Shown here piece after piece: positions 19,747-33,670 of a stretch of DNA of 64,000 bases. Position numbers and translations under genes: made by a program. The stretch comes from Verrucomicrobiales bacterium. GTDB lineage: Bacteria > Verrucomicrobiota > Verrucomicrobiia > Verrucomicrobiales > DEV007. Position 1 is the first letter of the stretch. Each line of letters begins with the position of its first letter. The stretch lies in contig JARGPJ010000001.1 of the NCBI GenBank assembly GCA_029212615.1, forward strand, positions 310,001 through 374,000, read 5' to 3'. The notes beneath the pieces were generated by a model. That model was given only the letters and a program-made list of their open reading frames with translations, was not told the DNA's origin and searched no databases.

Positions 19747-19900
19747 ACTCATTTCTCCATTTCTGAGTTCACAGTCAAATACGCTGCGATTACTTAAGAA
19801 ACTCCAGGGAGCAGTGCTCTCTATCTGAACTCAGCGCCACTGGAAAAGCTTGATTTTTCGTGATATCCCCCCCCCATTTACCCAAACCTCTGATTGCGCG

Positions 19901-20545
19901 ATGCTGAGTGACGCCGCCGGCCATTCACCTCCTTTTGATTTGAATCTTCTCGCTCATCTTCATTTATCCCATGGATGCTGCCCCGACACGCTGACGGGGA
20001 ATGTCATGGCTGACTATCTTGGCCGATATGAACCTGTCGATCAGTTGTCGGAGTCAATGCGGGAGCGGCTCATGCCGGGGATTCTGCTTCATCGGGAGAT
20101 TGACCAGTTCACCGATCAGCATCCAGTTGTCGCACGAGCTTGCGAGCACATTTCGCCCGACCGAAGAAGGCTGGGAGGGATTATCCTTGATATCGCGTTC
20201 GATTATTATCTAACCCGACACTGGGAGAAGTTCTCAGCGGAAAAGCGAGAGAACACGATCTCGCGGGGGTACGCCACCATCGCGATGGTCGCTTCCACCG
20301 GATTGAGCAAGAGAACCGAAACGCTGATCTCTAAAATGAGGATGGGCGACTGGCTCACGGCTTACGGTACGCTCGAAGGGCAGGCGCTCACTTTTCGGAG
20401 AGTGAGCCGCTTCAGTCCGGCCCTCGCCAACCTCAAAAGCGCTGAAGAGGAAATTGTCGCAAACGATTCTGTTTTTGAGCAATGCTTTCTGCAATTCTAC
20501 CCTGATCTTATCGATAGAGTCTCCAAGGTCCGCGACAATAGTTAG
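19901..20545 (+). CDS. AcpH-like (DUF479) phosphodiesterase, copy 1
   Basis: The ATG at 19901 gives 214 residues; the longest frame would use TTG. The family core starts with NLLAHLHLSH, followed by GNVMADYLGRYE, ILLHREIDQFTDQHP, and DIAFDYYLTRHWE. These conserved His and Asp residues form the HD-like metal centre of AcpH, the enzyme proposed in E. coli to remove phosphopantetheine from acyl carrier protein. The C-terminal ERYPDL-like ending (FLQFYPDLIDRV) also fits. An N-terminal extension of about 15 residues precedes the core. A second homologue is encoded at 33056-33670. The two are related at protein level but not near-identical at DNA level, so the duplication, if any, is old. Confidence 0.78.
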   Translation: MLSDAAGHSPPFDLNLLAHLHLSHGCCPDTLTGNVMADYLGRYEPVDQLSESMRERLMPGILLHREIDQFTDQHPVVARACEHISPDRRRLGGIILDIAFDYYLTRHWEKFSAEKRENTISRGYATIAMVASTGLSKRTETLISKMRMGDWLTAYGTLEGQALTFRRVSRFSPALANLKSAEEEIVANDSVFEQCFLQFYPDLIDRVSKVRDNS

Positions 20546-25066: not shown

Positions 25067-28000
25067 ATGGCCCTGAAACTCGTAGTCACGACAAACGTTA
25101 ACGGAGACGTTTTCGAACTTATTTTAAAAAAGTCGAAGTATCGCGTCGGACGTCGACACGACAATGATTTGCGAATCAAAGAGACTTATATCTCCGGCTA
25201 TCATTCCGAACTGAATCGCAATGATGCAGGAGATTACGAACTCAGCGATATGGGTTCCAGCAACGGTACTTTTCTGAACGGCCGCCAGGTCGATGGCTCT
25301 GCTACGGTTAAAGCAGGCGATTTTATCAAGTTCGGCATTCTCAAAGTAGCCGTCGAGGAGCATGAGGACACAGGACCAAAAATCGTCTCACTGAAGGATC
25401 GCCCCGCTTTCGCACGGAAACAGAACGACCTCACTTCATCCATCTCTGTCGCCGGAAACACCGGAGCGATCGCTTCGGCAGATGTGATTTCAGGCCCAAC
25501 AGATGCCACTTCAAGCAATCAAACCGTCTCGTCTGATAAGGAGGCCAAAAAGCTTCAGGCTCTTCTCAAGACAGAACAGGAGAAAGTGAAGTCACTTGAA
25601 AAGCTTCTTAACGAAGAACAAAGCAGCAAAGAAAAGCTGAGTGCAAAAATTGACGGCCTGAGAGGTCAGGCTGAAGCCGGGGCAAAGCTTGCCCCTCTTG
25701 AGACCAGCCTCGCCGAAAGCAAATCGGAGATCGCCTCACTCACGGCAGAACTGGATTCCTTTCAACAACAGCAAAAGAACTTAGAGAAATCTCTCGCTGA
25801 AGAAAAATCGACAAGGGAAGAGGCCGAGAAAGCCAATTCCTCTACCGACAGTAAGATCAAAGACCTCGAAGCATCTGTCGAAAAATTTCGCCGTGAATCA
25901 ACTGAGCTTGAAACACAGCTGTCTGAAGCGAAGAAAGAAAGTGAGTCGGTGAGGAATGATGCTGATTCTTCGCAGGAAGAAATTAAGAGCCTCAGAAAAG
26001 AAATCGCCGAGCTCACCGCCGGATCTGAGGCGTCAAACAACAGCCTCGCGGAATTGGAAAAACAACGCGACGCGAAACTCAAGGAAAACGAAACTACCAT
26101 TACCCGGCTGGAGGCCGAAATCGGGGCACTTAAAGAGGGGCTCAGCGGCAAGGAGTCCGCCCTTCAGGAAACGGCAAAAGAAGCCGCAAAACTCGCGGTC
26201 CTTGCAAAAACTGTCGACTCTCTGAACGACGAGCTGAGCGTTGCCAAATCTCTCTCCGGGAACCTTGAATCTGAAAAAGCAGAAGCGGAGAAACTGGCGC
26301 AGACAAGGGAGAGAGAACTCAAAGATCTACAGGATCAACTTGCCGGCAGGGAAAATGAAATTTCAGACCTCTCAAAGGACCGCGAAGAACTGATTCATCT
26401 CAAAGGTGAGCTGGAAAATTTCCGGACGAAAGCAGAAGAAGCCTCACAGGCAGCCCTTGAGGATAAGAAACGATTTGAAACCGAAATTGCAGCGAAAGAA
26501 GAATCGGCCAGGTCCCTGGAAGCTGAATTGATACAGGCGAAGGCTGATCTTGAGAAAGAGAGAAGCTCTCTCACTTCAGATATCACGTCAGCAAGCAAAG
26601 AAAGAGAGAAACTCGCCGCCTCACTTGAGACAAAGGAGGCTCTCATTGCGAAGCAGAAGGAAGAAATCGCAAACGTTAAGAGTGAAATCAAAGCTCAGGC
26701 TGCCGAAGTAAAATCGACAGAAGCTGAAGCTAAGCAAGCCCGGAAGCTTTCCGCGGAAGTGGAATCCCTGAAGGAACAACTCAGTGCGTCGAAGGCTACC
26801 CTTAAAGAAGCTTCCTCCTCTGAGAAGTCGATTCAAACTCAACTCGCAAAACAGGAATCTGAATTGGAGTCGCTTCGCAAAGAGCTCGCCAATGAATCAG
26901 CGGAGAAGGATTCGCTCAACGAAACTCTCGCGGCAGATCGCGGGGAGCTGCAGAAGAAGGAACAGGAAACGATCGAATTGCGCGGTGAAATTGAACAGCT
27001 CCGCACCAATGCAGGCAAAGCCGAGCAGGAAACGATTTCCAGGCTTGAGGCAAAACTTTCTGACTCGGAAGCCGAGCTGAAAGCAAAGGCGGAAACAGCA
27101 GACCAGTCATCCAGCGAACTGGCCACCGCACTCGCCAGCGTCGCCGCGATCACCACCGCAAAAGCCGCCCTTCAATCCGAAGTCGATGCCTTTCGGGAAT
27201 CGAGTGGTTCAGCTACCCGCGAAGCGTCTGACGCAAGGCAGGAGCTGAACGCCCGGAACGCCGAGCTTGCCAAGGTAACGACTCAACTCAAGCAGCAGTC
27301 TGATGCACTTCAGGAGGCGAAGTCGGAAGCAAACAAACTCCGCATTGATCTTCAGAAATCCCGGGAGGAAGCAGCCAAAAACTACAGTGCGACCGAACAG
27401 GAACTCTCTTCAAAAATCGCTGAACTCGAAACGGCTCTTGCTTCCGAGAAGGTTCGCGCCGGTGACGCCAGGTCGAAAAACGATGAATACAAAGCGGAAA
27501 TCGATAAGCTCGCCGATCTCTCACGTGGAACCGCCAGTGAAGCAGAGCAACTCCGCAAGCGGGTCGAGGAGATCTCTAAGAATAACGGGCAGCTTCAAGC
27601 TCAACTGAACAAGGAAAGCGCCGAGGCAACGCAACTTCGAGGACAACTGGAGGAATCGGGCAACAACCTCAGCGCCCTGCGCGCCAAGATCGACAACCTG
27701 GAAAAAGAAGTCTCACGAAAAGACCTTGCTCTCGAAGAGAAAGATCAGGAGCACGCCCGGAGCGAAAGCGATACCATCGTTCAGATCAAACGTGAACTGG
27801 GGGAGTCGGAAGCCAACAGGAAGAATGCTGAAGAAAAAGCCGATCAGCTTTCCAAAGATAAAGCGTCACTGAACAGTGCTTTCGAACGTCTCAAGGAACA
27901 ACTCAAGGCACTTGAAATTGCGAACAAAGAAGCAAAAGAGCGCGAGGAATCTTTCAATCACGACAAAGGGCTTCTGGCCCGTCGCCTTGAAAAGGCGGAA

Positions 28001-29893
28001 GCAAGCAACAGTGAACTGGCGGCACGGATCAAGGAAGATGCAGCGGCAGCTATTTCCAATAACGAACTGATTCAGAAGCTGGAGTCACAACTTCAAGCCA
28101 ACGAATCTGAAGCGGTTCGTATCGAACGGGAGCGCTCTTCATCTCTGAAAACGGAGATCAGCAAGCTGGAACGAATCAACCGAGACCACGTCACGAACGT
28201 GGAGCAACTCGGCGCGCAAATCGTCAGCCTCACCAGCGTAAAAGAATCCGGCGAGGAGCAGATTCTCAAACTAAACGAACGCATCGTGGCGCTGGAAAGC
28301 GAGGAAGCCTCGATGAAATCGTTGCTGCAGGATGCCGAAAAGAAACGGGCTGAGCTCACCTCTTCACTCACCGAACAGAGCGAACTGGCCGCTCAACGTG
28401 AAACCACCATCGCCGAACAGAAGCAGGAACTTGCGGATACGGTTAGTCGATTCAGAAGCGCCGAAACCAGCCTCCTTGAAAAGCATCGCAGCGAACTCGA
28501 CGCACTGCACAATGAACTCCGCGACCAGCGCAAGTACAGTACCGACCTGGAAGCAAATCTGGAAAACACGAGGGTCGGCCTCTCCGACGCCCTCCGCTCA
28601 GCAAGGGACCAGGCGGAGCAGGACCGCTCCAAAATCCTTGCCGAAGGCAACACAAAACTCTCACAGATCGAAGACGAACTCAGCCTGGCGATCAATTCCC
28701 GTGAAGAGATTGAGCGATCGCGGAATCTTCTTGAAGATGAACTCAACGAACGCGACGAGCGCATCGAGAAACTGGTCGAACACGTTGAGGACCTTGAACT
28801 GAAGATCAGCGACGTCAACGAAGCCCGGGAACAGGACCGCGATACCCTTGAAAAAACGAAGGCAGGATTCTCCAGCGCCCTGCACTCTAATTGGCAACAC
28901 CTTTCAATCGCCAGAGAATCATCCACAACGGAACGCGCCGCCAAAGAGAAAGCCGAAGCTGAGATCGAGGCCGCAAGATCAGAAATTCAGCAACTTGAAT
29001 CAGAAGCGGAGAAAGCCCGCGCGAAGTACGAAGAGGAGATCCGCGATTGGGAGAAGCGATTCGATCAACTTCGCGAGGAGAAACTCACGCTTGCCTCAGA
29101 AGACGCCAACCTCAAGCGTATCAGGGATCAAATCCTCGAAGCTCAGTCCGAAAAGAAATCGATCGAATCAGAGCTGTCCAAATTGAGCGCCGGAATGAAA
29201 AATTTCCAACAGCAGTCTGAGGACCTCTCCGGGCAGAAGGAAGCTCTCCTCAGCGAAAGGGAAGAGCTCAAAGCCAACCTCAATGCCGCGAGACAGGAAC
29301 TGGAAAGTATTCAGCGACGCTGCTCAGAATCTCAGAACCACGAAGAAAAACTTGCCGAGACAATCGATTCCGCTGAGCGGCGAATCCAGTCACTTAAGAA
29401 ACTGGAATCCCAAATGGAACAGGCCGTCGAGCGTAAACGACAGTCCGGGATCCTGAGCCGCAGCGACGTTTTCAGTTCAAGTGATGCCAAGGTAGAACCG
29501 GTGAACGGTGACTTTTCCGAAGAGGAATTTTACCGGAAGCTCATTGGCAAACTCGACCTCATTGATGACCTCTCGAAGCGCTACGATAATCGCTGGCGGT
29601 ATCCGAAGGTCGGCGACCAGCTCTTGATCCTGAAAAGCAGCTTCCTTGATTTTCTCCATGATCACTCCGTCCGTGAGTTCCGACTCGACCCGGGAACAGT
29701 ACTCTCAGTCGAAGAACGCAAGCGGATCAAACTGGTTCCGCCCGATCAGACAAGCAGCCGAAAGGGGGCTCCCCCGACAATCGTTCAGAACGGAAACAGT
29801 TCACGCGTTGTTGAAACCGTGCGACCCGGATACATCTACCGAAACGGATCTTCTGACGTCGTCATTCGCAAGGCGGAAGTCATCGTTGGATAA
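25067..29893 (+). CDS. Giant FHA / coiled-coil protein with a GrpE-like C-terminal domain
   Basis: This 1608-residue protein has three parts. Residues about 1-95 are an FHA phosphothreonine-binding domain: VGRRHDND (R29), ISGYHSEL (S43, H46) and DMGSSNGTFLNG (S64, S65, N66). About residues 155-1465 are almost continuous coiled coil, rich in Glu, Lys, Ala and Leu with heptad spacing. About 1484-1608 look like the head of GrpE, the Hsp70 nucleotide-exchange factor: FYRKLIGKLDLIDDLSKRY, then LLILKSSFLDFLHDH with VREFRLDPG, and finally VVETVRPGYIYR and VIRKAEVIVG, which follow the GrpE beta-wing pattern V-V-x-V-x-x-x-GY ... R-A-x-V-x-V. A lidless Hsp70 gene starts 112 bp downstream. No membrane segment or signal is visible. 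The GrpE assignment is mine, from pattern. Confidence 0.72.
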   Translation: MALKLVVTTNVNGDVFELILKKSKYRVGRRHDNDLRIKETYISGYHSELNRNDAGDYELSDMGSSNGTFLNGRQVDGSATVKAGDFIKFGILKVAVEEHEDTGPKIVSLKDRPAFARKQNDLTSSISVAGNTGAIASADVISGPTDATSSNQTVSSDKEAKKLQALLKTEQEKVKSLEKLLNEEQSSKEKLSAKIDGLRGQAEAGAKLAPLETSLAESKSEIASLTAELDSFQQQQKNLEKSLAEEKSTREEAEKANSSTDSKIKDLEASVEKFRRESTELETQLSEAKKESESVRNDADSSQEEIKSLRKEIAELTAGSEASNNSLAELEKQRDAKLKENETTITRLEAEIGALKEGLSGKESALQETAKEAAKLAVLAKTVDSLNDELSVAKSLSGNLESEKAEAEKLAQTRERELKDLQDQLAGRENEISDLSKDREELIHLKGELENFRTKAEEASQAALEDKKRFETEIAAKEESARSLEAELIQAKADLEKERSSLTSDITSASKEREKLAASLETKEALIAKQKEEIANVKSEIKAQAAEVKSTEAEAKQARKLSAEVESLKEQLSASKATLKEASSSEKSIQTQLAKQESELESLRKELANESAEKDSLNETLAADRGELQKKEQETIELRGEIEQLRTNAGKAEQETISRLEAKLSDSEAELKAKAETADQSSSELATALASVAAITTAKAALQSEVDAFRESSGSATREASDARQELNARNAELAKVTTQLKQQSDALQEAKSEANKLRIDLQKSREEAAKNYSATEQELSSKIAELETALASEKVRAGDARSKNDEYKAEIDKLADLSRGTASEAEQLRKRVEEISKNNGQLQAQLNKESAEATQLRGQLEESGNNLSALRAKIDNLEKEVSRKDLALEEKDQEHARSESDTIVQIKRELGESEANRKNAEEKADQLSKDKASLNSAFERLKEQLKALEIANKEAKEREESFNHDKGLLARRLEKAEASNSELAARIKEDAAAAISNNELIQKLESQLQANESEAVRIERERSSSLKTEISKLERINRDHVTNVEQLGAQIVSLTSVKESGEEQILKLNERIVALESEEASMKSLLQDAEKKRAELTSSLTEQSELAAQRETTIAEQKQELADTVSRFRSAETSLLEKHRSELDALHNELRDQRKYSTDLEANLENTRVGLSDALRSARDQAEQDRSKILAEGNTKLSQIEDELSLAINSREEIERSRNLLEDELNERDERIEKLVEHVEDLELKISDVNEAREQDRDTLEKTKAGFSSALHSNWQHLSIARESSTTERAAKEKAEAEIEAARSEIQQLESEAEKARAKYEEEIRDWEKRFDQLREEKLTLASEDANLKRIRDQILEAQSEKKSIESELSKLSAGMKNFQQQSEDLSGQKEALLSEREELKANLNAARQELESIQRRCSESQNHEEKLAETIDSAERRIQSLKKLESQMEQAVERKRQSGILSRSDVFSSSDAKVEPVNGDFSEEEFYRKLIGKLDLIDDLSKRYDNRWRYPKVGDQLLILKSSFLDFLHDHSVREFRLDPGTVLSVEERKRIKLVPPDQTSSRKGAPPTIVQNGNSSRVVETVRPGYIYRNGSSDVVIRKAEVIVG

Positions 29894-29918
29894 GTTCTCA
29901 ATTAATTCACTCAATTTT

Positions 29919-29924
29919 TATAAT
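29919..29924 (+). promoter_or_regulatory. Possible -10 box upstream of the Hsp70-like gene
   Basis: A TATAAT sits in the 112-bp gap between the FHA/GrpE-like gene and the Hsp70-like gene. No good -35 box lies 16-18 bp upstream (TCTCAA is the nearest candidate). If real, the Hsp70-like gene and its small partner could also be transcribed independently of the 4.8-kb gene before them. Confidence 0.25.
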
Positions 29925-30005
29925 TACTCTAGCAAGATAGCCTGCCTATTGTATTATCTGTCTCACGCAAACTCACTCTGACTTTTACCCTCCTAAAAGT
30001 TAATC

Positions 30006-31505
30006 ATGGCAGATAAATTGGCTCGATATGTCGGAATTGATCTCGGCACCAGCACCTCCGCTCTCGCACACGTTCGGGAAGACGGAAATCCGGAAATCGT
30101 TCCCAATAGTGACGGGGAACGTCTAACACCTTCGGTCGTTTTCTTCGATCAGTTTGAAGGCGTTAAACTGGTCGGATCAGCAGCCAAAGACGGCGGCGAT
30201 CCTGAACGAACCGTGCGTCACATCAAAAAGCACATGGATGACCCGACCTACGTCGTGGAGATCGATGGAGAACGATGGACCCCAACTGAAATTTCCGCGC
30301 TGTTTCTCGCCAAGCTGAGAAACGAATGCTCCCGTCTCGCCGGTAAGATCGATGAAGTTGTCATCACCGTGCCGGCAAACTTCAATGAGCTGGCGCGCAA
30401 AGCGACAGTCACCGCAGGACGTCTCGCGGGCCTAACTGTGAAACGCATCGTCAATGAGCCAACTGCCGCGGCTCTCTTCTATGCTCATACTCAGTCCATC
30501 AAAGGGCGCATCCTCGTCTATGACTTGGGAGGCGGGACCCTTGATATCACGATTCTCGATGTCGAAAATGATCAGGTCGATATTCTACTCAGTGAAGGAG
30601 CACGGCATCTCGGCGGATCTGATTTCGACAGTATCCTTATCGAACTGATCGGGGAACAATACAAAGCCCAAAACGGCAAAGAGCTGATTCTCGACGACAC
30701 GCAACGCCGACGACTCCTCGCCGGTGCGGAAGATACAAAGAAACGCCTTTCCAAACTGAACACTGTCTCGGAGAAAATCGGCAGTGAAGATTTCGGCCTG
30801 GCTGAAATTGAACTTTCCCGGGATGCCTTTGAAACGGCAATTCGCGGACTCCTGACCCGTACTGTCATGCTCGTCGAGCAGGCACTCGACAATCTCGACA
30901 TGACACCGGATGACATCGACCACGTCGTGCTCGTCGGTGGCAGCACCCGAATTCCTAAAGTTCAGGAACTGCTCACAACGCAATTTGGAAAGCCGCCCAT
31001 TTCATGCGGCAACGTCGATGAGTGCGTCGCCCTCGGAGCGGCTCTCTTTGCCCAGCGTGCCCGTCGTGTCTCGGAAGTCTGCAATCACAGCTATGGAACG
31101 CTCGCGATCATCGAAGACGCCACTACCGGTGAAGCAACAGTCCAAAATTCCGTCGTGATTCCGAAAAACACACCGATCCCCTGCTCGATGTCACAGACTT
31201 ACATGACCTCAGAAGACAATGAGGAAATCATCGAAGTCGAAATCACACAGGGCGAAGATCATGACCCCCGCTACGTCGATATCGTAGGGAAGATCAGTTT
31301 AAAAGTGCCTCCGGGGCGCGCCGCCGGCTGTCAGGTCACGGTAACCTACAGCTATGACGAGAACCAACGCGTTCGAGCCCAGATATACGACGAAGACTCC
31401 GGGCTTCGCAAAGATATCGATATTGAATACCAGGGAGAGGGCGTTCTCGCCGACATTGAAATTGAGAGAAAATCAGCTTATCTCAAACAGGTTAAAATCG
31501 CCTAA
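30006..31505 (+). CDS. Short Hsp70-family ATPase lacking the helical lid
   Basis: The protein has 499 residues, against about 638 for DnaK. The ATPase motifs are all present: GIDLGTSTSA (10-19), the connect region with NEPTAAALFYA, YDLGGGTLDIT (phosphate 2) and LVGGSTRIPKVQ (adenosine). A short beta-type substrate-binding domain follows, recognisable from VVIPKNTPIPCS and IEVEITQGED. The protein then ends at a Lys/Ile tail, without the alpha-helical lid or an EEVD-like tail. Such lidless Hsp70s bind clients weakly and rely on partners. The GrpE-like upstream protein and the J-like downstream protein would supply exchange and targeting. The stop codon is 14 bp before the next start, so the two are co-transcribed. 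Confidence 0.9.
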   Translation: MADKLARYVGIDLGTSTSALAHVREDGNPEIVPNSDGERLTPSVVFFDQFEGVKLVGSAAKDGGDPERTVRHIKKHMDDPTYVVEIDGERWTPTEISALFLAKLRNECSRLAGKIDEVVITVPANFNELARKATVTAGRLAGLTVKRIVNEPTAAALFYAHTQSIKGRILVYDLGGGTLDITILDVENDQVDILLSEGARHLGGSDFDSILIELIGEQYKAQNGKELILDDTQRRRLLAGAEDTKKRLSKLNTVSEKIGSEDFGLAEIELSRDAFETAIRGLLTRTVMLVEQALDNLDMTPDDIDHVVLVGGSTRIPKVQELLTTQFGKPPISCGNVDECVALGAALFAQRARRVSEVCNHSYGTLAIIEDATTGEATVQNSVVIPKNTPIPCSMSQTYMTSEDNEEIIEVEITQGEDHDPRYVDIVGKISLKVPPGRAAGCQVTVTYSYDENQRVRAQIYDEDSGLRKDIDIEYQGEGVLADIEIERKSAYLKQVKIA

Positions 31506-31519
31506 CCCCCGAAAAAGAT

Positions 31520-31801
31520 ATGTTTAAAAGACTCGTCAATTGGCTTTCAGGAAAACCCGAAGCACCTTCTCCCGGATCCAATCTGGACGGCATCTTCGGA
31601 AAGATGACCCCCGAGTCGCTTTGCGGCATCGACCCCGCGGAAATGGACCGGGAAGAGATCAGGAAAACGCTCGCCCAGCTTTACAAACGTCACAATCAAG
31701 CTGCCGGAAGTCTGAATCCCGAGTTGCGCGAGGAAGCTGAACGCATGCTCGATGCAGTCGTCCACTGCCGGGAGAAGTATGTCGATGGGGCGGCTCAGTA
31801 G
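31520..31801 (+). CDS. Small J-domain-like protein with HNQ in place of HPD
   Basis: The protein has 93 residues. It starts with an amphipathic MFKRLVNWLSGKP. From about residue 32 the sequence ESLCGIDPAEMDREEIRK, LAQLYKRHNQAAG and PELREEAERMLDAVVHCREKY has the helix-loop-helix layout of a J domain (helix II EEIRK..L..LY..H, loop, helix III about 67-88). The catalytic HPD is replaced by HNQ (58-60). In known J proteins HPD is needed to stimulate Hsp70 ATPase, so this would be a degenerate J-like cofactor that could dock without full activation. Position, 14 bp after the Hsp70-like gene, strengthens the reading. The alternative is an unrelated helical hairpin. It ends overlapping the convergent LprI-like gene by seven bases. 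Confidence 0.55.
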   Translation: MFKRLVNWLSGKPEAPSPGSNLDGIFGKMTPESLCGIDPAEMDREEIRKTLAQLYKRHNQAAGSLNPELREEAERMLDAVVHCREKYVDGAAQ

Positions 31802-33055: not shown

Positions 33056-33670
33056 CTAGAGGCGACCAGCGCGTTCGGCATCTATCTCCGCTCTGAGCTG
33101 CGGCATGTATGCTTGCAGTTCAGGATAAAACTCGAGGAAGTGGCTCTCGATGACTTCGAGATTCTCCTGAAGAATTTCTGCCGCGTCAAAAATTGGCTCC
33201 AGTATAGGAGAACGAAATGAGACGCGACGAAGCGTTAAGTCGATCCCTTCGAGGGTGGCATATTCCTTCAGCCACCCCTGCCTGATCATCGAGGCGATCG
33301 CTTCTGCTGCCTCAGGAGGAGCCACGTCCGCAACGGCTTCCAGTTGAGAATGCACGGAAGAAATAAAGTGATCGAGAGGTTCCCCGTGAGAGAAGTTCTC
33401 CCAATACCGGTGCAGGAAAAAATCGTAGAAGATATCGATCACGATTCCGGCAAAGCGGCGCATCTCTGAAGGGAGAATTTCCCGGCTCTTTTGCCACGAA
33501 GGGTGCGAATCTGTAAAGGCATCAACATGGCGATGTTCGACGATCCCCTTCCACACCGCCTCAGGGTACCGCTCGTCCCACGGATAGCCCCGGACAAAAT
33601 CGCCGAGGAGACTACCCATCCTTGAAGCAGGGGTAGGCTCAGCCAGGTGAAGGTGGGCCAGGAAGTTCAT
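33056..33670 (-). CDS. AcpH-like (DUF479) phosphodiesterase, copy 2
   Basis: The protein has 204 residues and is closer to E. coli AcpH than copy 1. It begins MNFLAHLHLAEP, then SLLGDFVRGYPW, IVEHRHVDAFTDSHP, DIFYDFFLHRYWENFS, and ends near FLEFYPELQAYMPQLR. These carry the conserved His, Asp and Arg of the family, proposed to hydrolyse holo-acyl carrier protein to apo-ACP and 4'-phosphopantetheine. Compared with copy 1 it has no N-terminal extension and the ATG is the natural start. No fatty-acid gene is nearby. It is convergent with the DoxX gene. Confidence 0.85.
   Translation of the reverse strand: MNFLAHLHLAEPTPASRMGSLLGDFVRGYPWDERYPEAVWKGIVEHRHVDAFTDSHPSWQKSREILPSEMRRFAGIVIDIFYDFFLHRYWENFSHGEPLDHFISSVHSQLEAVADVAPPEAAEAIASMIRQGWLKEYATLEGIDLTLRRVSFRSPILEPIFDAAEILQENLEVIESHFLEFYPELQAYMPQLRAEIDAERAGRL

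Follow-up and report, generated by a model that had tools for sequence, protein, structure and literature searches.

Here we describe a three-gene locus from a Verrucomicrobiales bacterium (GCA_029212615.1), whose 4.55 Mb genome is assembled in 21 contigs. The window, meaning the whole stretch of 64,000 nucleotides that was analyzed, covers positions 310,001 to 374,000 of contig JARGPJ010000001.1, and coordinates below are those of the window unless a locus is named. The locus suggests that some Verrucomicrobiales carry a side Hsp70 machine with a GrpE-like partner at the end of an FHA rod, which may be a chaperone aimed by phosphorylation. The first gene, an open reading frame (ORF) at 25067..29893 (+ strand), encodes a 1608-residue protein with an FHA domain, a coiled coil, and a GrpE-like C-terminus. 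It is followed after 112 nucleotides by a gene for a 499-residue Hsp70 (30006..31505, +), which consists only of a nucleotide-binding domain and a beta substrate-binding domain as judged by PF00012 and alignment with DnaK. The third gene begins 14 nucleotides later (31520..31801, +) and encodes a 93-residue J-like protein, so classed from family alignments, AlphaFold2, and Foldseek. All three genes are co-directional.

The FHA domain spans residues 25-90 of the 1608-residue protein (25139..25336, +; PF00498, E = 1.6e-15) and includes the GR, S..H, and N signature residues, which in FHA domains bind phosphothreonine. Among 21 aligned rows (L046, L048, L050, and L054 were excluded), GR and S..H are kept in 21/21 and N in 20/21, and the domain is predicted to be a phosphothreonine binder. 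A coiled-coil rod then runs from about residue 151 to 1470 (25517..29476, +). Its 1320 residues contain a single proline and have a 3.5-residue periodicity, with a period-3.5 power of 3.36 versus a mean of 1.03 and a maximum of 1.41 in 200 shuffles. In an NCBIfam scan, matches to SMC, Rad50, and FHA-protein models were all far under the cut-offs, and PADLOC gave nine matches to JetC/LmuB models, located in the coiled coil. ORFs containing both FHA and tail vary widely in length, at 294 (L060), 477, 634, 1058, 1817 (L058), and 2086 (L151) residues. Since only about 60 residues separate FHA from the GrpE-like part in the L060 orthologue, the rod is not required. Across 20 orthologues, identity to the window protein is 28-91% in the FHA domain, 31-86% in the tail, and 26-69% in the coil (19 rows), so that in these alignments both ends are conserved and the rod drifts.

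The GrpE-like head occupies residues 1484-1608 (29516..29890, +) and comprises a helix hairpin (about 1485-1532) and a beta wing (about 1535-1607), as determined by AlphaFold2, Foldseek, and hhalign. Compared with 30 canonical GrpEs by hhalign, the divergent family scored 93.1% with 24 rows and 96.9% (P 2e-10) with 22 broader rows; the first tail profile excludes L050, which has a broken frame. The head by itself scored 95.8% and the helix part by itself 1.8%, while 20 column shuffles gave at most 1.2% and a reversed profile 0.1%, which argues that the GrpE likeness is not a coiled-coil artefact. Searched in reverse, the family profile recovers 28 of 30 canonical GrpEs from the order at 13-32 bits, and every match falls within the GrpE ORF itself. 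Outside the order it finds seven ORFs, six of which are canonical GrpEs. The seventh, a 347-residue ORF at L192 (genome G231, same phylum), scores 27 bits with the divergent GrpE profile versus 10.5 bits with the canonical one, and is possibly a divergent GrpE outside the order.

An AlphaFold2 model of residues 1410-1608, built from 12 sequences, has a stalk helix, a helix hairpin, and beta strands, with a predicted local distance difference test score (pLDDT) of 79 and a predicted template modeling score of 0.50. In a Foldseek search with this model, PDB ranks 1-9 were all GrpE or GrpEL1 (best E 1.3e-3, probability 1.00). Single-sequence scores are far lower. Pfam GrpE, with a cut-off of 25.8 bits, matches the window tail at E 0.043 (141-residue tail) or E 0.081 (186-residue tail, profile positions 4-163 of 165), the genome search of the source genome gives the tail E 6.96, and a PDB sequence search with the tail returned a single chance-looking match, KIAA1526 (E 0.078). 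When 11 other FHA proteins of the family, complete or nearly so, were scanned whole against Pfam with hmmscan, FHA was found in 11/11, with GrpE over the cut-off in two (L151, 32.1 bits; L217, 26.9 bits) and under it in six (L157, 23.5; L154, 22.1; L152, 21.1; L060, 20.1; L209, 17.5; L158, 16.5 bits). The GrpE assignment holds despite these weak single-protein scores because the family profile and the fold carry it; the C-terminal domain is GrpE-like by homology, with a weak case from the window protein alone and a strong one from the family. As a GrpE-like head, it would be a nucleotide-exchange factor for Hsp70.

The first-pass annotation, made from the sequence alone, had read this gene as a 1608-residue FHA protein with a long coiled coil and a GrpE head in its last 125 residues. 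The ORF, the FHA domain, and the long coil are as it described, the C-terminal model and the family profile both resemble GrpE, and its cue, the ending VIRKAEVIVG, corresponds to the conserved final segment of the family alignment. It also cast the coil as a long scaffold and FHA as targeting the protein to phosphothreonine proteins. Both roles are inferred, and the rod is almost absent in L060.

The Hsp70 matches PF00012 at E 4e-100. Residues 5-486 align with residues 1-486 of the 625-residue DnaK chain 6w6e, and since just 13 residues remain after the aligned part, the protein has no alpha-helical lid. The beta substrate-binding domain is present, as alignment with solved DnaKs extends through residue 486-489. 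In 27 family rows (L050, L066, and L067 were excluded), the ATPase motifs GIDLGT, NEPTAA, and D-GGGTLD are kept in 27/27, and the equivalent of the phosphate-site (catalytic) Lys is Lys in 16 and Arg in 11. The interdomain linker of DnaK-type proteins is hydrophobic. Here, alignment with DnaK places EVCNHSYG (residues 357-364; 31074..31097, +) in its stead, and the pattern EV[C/A]N..YG is found in 27/27 rows. Arg139 (30420..30422, +) aligns with the Arg through which DnaK contacts the J domain, which we take to be R167 of E. coli DnaK, the residue that meets the HPD Asp. This position drifts across the 27 rows (R 13, K 6, Q 1, E 6, A 1). PADLOC gave one weak match to the Hsp70 (E 0.0085).

Family alignments of the small protein indicate a core at about residues 30-92, preceded by a short basic, hydrophobic N-terminal stretch. 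At the site of the His-Pro-Asp (HPD) motif of J domains it has His-Asn-Gln (31691..31699, +), as placed by alignment and the hhalign register. Across the family, this site reads H/Y/F-N-x, with no HPD. When the trimmed core plus L149 was compared with J domains by hhalign, the result was 3.3%, with a score of 16.6 versus 14.7 for the best of 20 shuffles, and this register, suggestive only, sets N at the P of HPD. The J set contained 29 domains, as L139, one of 30 fetched J loci, was left out; the first small-protein profile excludes L067. NCBIfam gave no match for the small protein. The AlphaFold2 model (13 sequences) is a helix hairpin with a pLDDT of 71.6 and residues 1-27 under 50; the alignments for this model and the tail model are the window plus 12 and 11 of 15 loci, respectively. 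J domains make up 10 of its top 15 PDB matches in Foldseek, all of them weak (best E 0.66, probability up to 0.80). We therefore describe the protein as weakly J-like and do not call it a J protein. Of the two claims in the first-pass annotation that concern these genes, the Hsp70 without a lid is borne out by the 13 residues beyond the aligned DnaK part. The 93-residue J-like protein fares less well: the fold matches lean toward J domains, but there is no sequence-profile match and no HPD.

An orthologue of the Hsp70 (at least 60% identity) is found in 31 of 56 relatives, 27 of these full length, and the closest Hsp70 after these reaches 40%. With a threshold of E 1e-140, the orthologue is found in 7 of 288 sampled genomes of the phylum, all within the order. 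Fourteen of 15 named Hsp70 loci are from Verrucomicrobiota metagenome-assembled genomes (Verrucomicrobiales, Akkermansiaceae, Verrucomicrobiia), and the other is from a cyanobacterium, with an Hsp70 at 36%. The small-protein profile matches 8 of 188 genomes of the class, the eighth being G233, from another family. Among 29 fetched loci, a GrpE-like gene lies directly upstream of Hsp70 in 24 of 27 testable cases, covering several families, and the small gene lies downstream in 27/27. Contig ends account for the omissions (L066 and L067 upstream, L049 and L057 downstream). The 24 upstream genes comprise 20 with FHA and tail in one ORF, three cut by the contig end before FHA, and one that is broken.

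The three exceptions upstream are L057 (G052), L064 (G037), and L055, a second copy in G029. L057 has no adjoining FHA-GrpE and its small gene is cut off. G052 and G037 each have an FHA protein with a GrpE-like tail elsewhere in the genome (L153 and L154), and in G029 the first Hsp70 copy has FHA-GrpE and the second does not. At L080, Hsp70 and the small gene are present without FHA-GrpE. Conversely, G031 has FHA-GrpE at the equivalent place, judging its neighbors by eye, with both Hsp70 and the small gene missing. Based on G031 and L080, Hsp70 and the J-like gene behave as one unit and FHA-GrpE as a second, and the two are usually joined. Of the 31 genomes with Hsp70, 29 contain some paralogue of the divergent GrpE family and 29 contain the small protein. 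The small protein is also present in G038, at the end of a contig, so that an Hsp70 gene would lie beyond the break, and the A4 match in G035 sits at canonical GrpE and was not counted. Co-occurrence of Hsp70 and the divergent GrpE family gives a Fisher p of 6e-5 over 56 genomes, ignoring relatedness. Conservation of the gene triple, on which the first-pass annotation had staked its system, is thus evident in relatives, but the triple is not obligate, as G031, G039, L055, L064, and L080 illustrate.

The source genome has a canonical GrpE (E 1.2e-45) and three divergent members of the family: the 1608-residue giant, L207, and L206. L207 (contig C18, L207:4060-6369) encodes a second FHA protein of 486 residues with a GrpE-like tail (FHA 1.6e-18, family profile 5.3e-25). 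In a tree of the family, 12 canonical GrpEs split from 42 divergent rows (100/99), and the branch to the divergent head is 4.03. Shorter FHA forms (6 rows, 100/100) and membrane-like forms (3 rows, 100/99) each form a clade, though the backbone is largely unresolved and several long branches are unsure. L206 (L206:4449-5018; contig C14, about 63.4-64.0 kb) encodes a 190-residue GrpE-like protein with a hydrophobic N-terminal segment (family profile 6.7e-26). Its neighbors are, we presume by eye, bioD-like and trmB-like. A Pfam GrpE scan had no match in L206 or L207, and their membership rests on the family profile. In L207, L158, L209, and L210, the gene after the second FHA paralogue encodes a protein with a signal-like N-terminus, and these proteins look related by eye; the one after L207, the source genome's own copy, had no match in Pfam or NCBIfam.

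With moderate confidence, we interpret the locus as a dedicated and re-wired Hsp70 machine, with its exchange factor tethered via phosphothreonine recognition. The FHA head would dock on a Thr-phosphorylated partner, and phosphothreonine ligands are plausible because the source genome has 15 protein-kinase matches. According to the accessible part of a published account of GrpE, its stalk forms the GrpE dimer (PMC12987570). The coiled coil here may be an overgrown version of this dimer stalk, which would give a tether that has two FHA heads and the exchange factor at its far end. Coiled coils rise 0.15 nm per residue, and 1320 residues in a two-stranded spacer could span at most about 195 nm. 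The GrpE-like head would open the neighboring Hsp70 for ADP/ATP exchange, and with the head at the tethered end, we propose that cycling would be concentrated at the phosphoprotein. In the vicinity of the phosphorylated partner, tethered exchange would let the lidless Hsp70 rebind ATP faster. Since it has no lid, this Hsp70 should hold its clients briefly and work as a rapid clamp or switch.

The small partner would dock on Hsp70 much like a J domain. The HPD of a J domain contacts an Arg of DnaK. Because the small partner has no HPD, it cannot use this normal contact, in keeping with the drift at the Arg position and the substituted linker. These three features agree with one another and may together reflect an altered docking mode, in which the small partner probably positions Hsp70 rather than firing the ATPase in the usual way.

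Several results weigh against a dedicated machine built from these parts. Pfam GrpE (PF01025) is not listed at E 10 for the full-length window protein, nor is it listed for 3 of the 11 other FHA proteins (L153, L211, and L207). The Pfam genome search of the relatives overstates such ORFs and is not relied on here: six relatives' FHA ORFs are over the cut-off in that search, and whole-protein hmmscan, which covers L151 and L152 of these, upholds the former and not the latter. L153 and L154 are likewise over the cut-off in the genome search, whereas hmmscan leaves L153 unlisted and L154, like L152, under the cut-off. The Foldseek matches to GrpE include none at or below E 0.001, and the root-mean-square deviation is about 20. 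For the small protein, the Pfam J domain was found in 0 of 15 family members at E 1, and hhalign of 27 small-protein rows against the 29 J domains gave 0.03%. The co-occurrence count takes all tail paralogues, including ones without FHA, and is not independent because 33 of the 56 relatives belong to one genus. The Arg at the catalytic-Lys position also belongs on this side. Finally, FHA-GrpE is found without a cognate Hsp70 in G031 and G039, and no Hsp70 was seen among nearby ORFs at the second FHA paralogue loci L157 and L158.

These last two observations indicate that the head may serve DnaK. FHA-GrpE would then bring the housekeeping DnaK to phosphoproteins, with Hsp70 and the small protein as a separate pair, consistent with the tighter 27/27 linkage of those two genes. 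We regard this as unlikely though credible, given that the GrpE-like gene is directly upstream of Hsp70 in 24 of 27 testable loci and that the head is far diverged from canonical GrpE. Another explanation, which we find rather doubtful, is that the GrpE-like head and Hsp70 are static binding modules on a protein that is mainly a spacer, with no exchange cycle. The very long, fast-changing coil fits a structural scaffold of this kind, as do the Arg at the catalytic-Lys position in 11/27, the replaced linker, and the absent HPD. However, the three ATPase motifs are kept in every row, and the near absence of the rod in L060 is ill-suited to a structural role.

That the locus belongs to a conflict or defense system, akin to the HSP70-GrpE-DnaJ neighborhoods of GAP1-N2 GTPase systems, has a published precedent in the accessible part of PMC7159879, where such dedicated sets are described. 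It is nonetheless very improbable here: PADLOC gives just the JetC/LmuB coiled-coil matches and the one weak Hsp70 match, and inspection by eye of the listed ORFs near the loci, with no GTPase profile run, revealed no GTPase or variable effector. We give practically no credence to a gene order arising by chance together with a GrpE likeness arising from coiled coil. The weak single-sequence Pfam matches (0.043; 6.96), and the tendency of the genome search to overstate such matches, would fit this, but the head-only versus helix-only scores, the GrpE-like model, and the 24/27 linkage contradict it.

Compared with known systems, the locus has parts that descend from GrpE and Hsp70, a new architecture, and a third part that is unproven. 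The head shares with GrpE and GrpEL1 (1dkg, 9bls) a helical stalk, a short helical part, and a beta wing in the same order, an architecture covered in the accessible part of PMC12987570. It differs in the FHA domain and roughly 1320-residue coiled coil in front, in its divergent sequence, and in the canonical GrpE being kept elsewhere in the genome. The Hsp70 has the nucleotide-binding and beta substrate-binding domains and the ATPase motifs of DnaK-type proteins (2v7y, 6w6e, 4b9q), but lacks the lid and has another linker and a drifting Arg at the J-contact site. As far as the accessible part of the source describes them, GAP1-N2 GTPase systems have a side set of HSP70, GrpE, and a DnaJ fused to an FNIII protein (PMC7159879). 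Both are bacterial side sets with Hsp70, GrpE, and DnaJ-type parts, but there the set comes with a GTPase and a DnaJ-FNIII fusion, whereas here the fusion is FHA-GrpE, with no GTPase noticed by eye. Eukaryotic BAG, an Hsp70 exchange domain often coupled to signaling modules according to the accessible part of PMC12987570, is alike in logic only, as an exchange domain coupled to a signaling module, and its fold differs. The Myxococcus proteins CsdK1 and CsdK2 are described in the accessible part of PMC10313047 as PilZ-DnaK proteins. They too couple part of a bacterial Hsp70 to a domain that binds a signal, but there the tag is PilZ on DnaK and here it is on the exchange factor. No FHA-GrpE fusion was found in a literature search of open-licence PMC papers, within the parts that were accessible.

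Other Hsp70 loci were also observed. L159:4335-7102 (G034), another side operon in the order Verrucomicrobiales, encodes, in sequence, a 98-residue J protein (Pfam 3.6e-10), a 231-residue GrpE (6.6e-17), and a 581-residue Hsp70. Like the window locus, it has three dedicated genes, but J and GrpE are plain, Hsp70 is longer, FHA is absent, and the gene order is different. L150:4270-6842 (G233) encodes a 527-residue, apparently lidless Hsp70 and then a 326-residue protein with a hydrophobic N-terminus. The last 60 residues of this second protein are matched by the small J-like family (E 1.3e-8) and read W-N-A where HPD would be. L212:3560-5951 (contig C8 of the source genome) encodes a 610-residue Hsp70 followed by a 183-residue protein with a weak HSCB_C match (0.043) and, by eye, no N-terminal HPD. 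Within the window, two acyl carrier protein phosphodiesterase genes flank the locus (19850-20545, Pfam 1.6e-44; 33056-33670, 3e-58). The names CysS, HemB, BioD, and TrmB are presumptive, given by eye.

A broader reading, which we hold only tentatively and think somewhat less probable than its negation, is that GrpE of the order radiated into addressable exchange factors carrying a long FHA rod, a shorter FHA rod, or a likely membrane helix. The long-rod form, the lidless Hsp70, and the HPD-less J-like partner would then be a phosphorylation-gated machine in which the controlled step is the place of exchange rather than J-stimulated hydrolysis. In the usual view, it is the J protein that directs an Hsp70 machine to its target. 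If the proposal of a dedicated machine is true, here the exchange factor would carry the address and read phosphorylation, so that a bacterium would exert control at the nucleotide-exchange step, similar to the way BAG links Hsp70 to eukaryotic signaling. The locus would also be a natural test of Hsp70 function without a lid, a standard linker, or an HPD partner, in a family in which the stretch ahead of GrpE ranges from about 60 to well over 1000 residues while both ends are kept.

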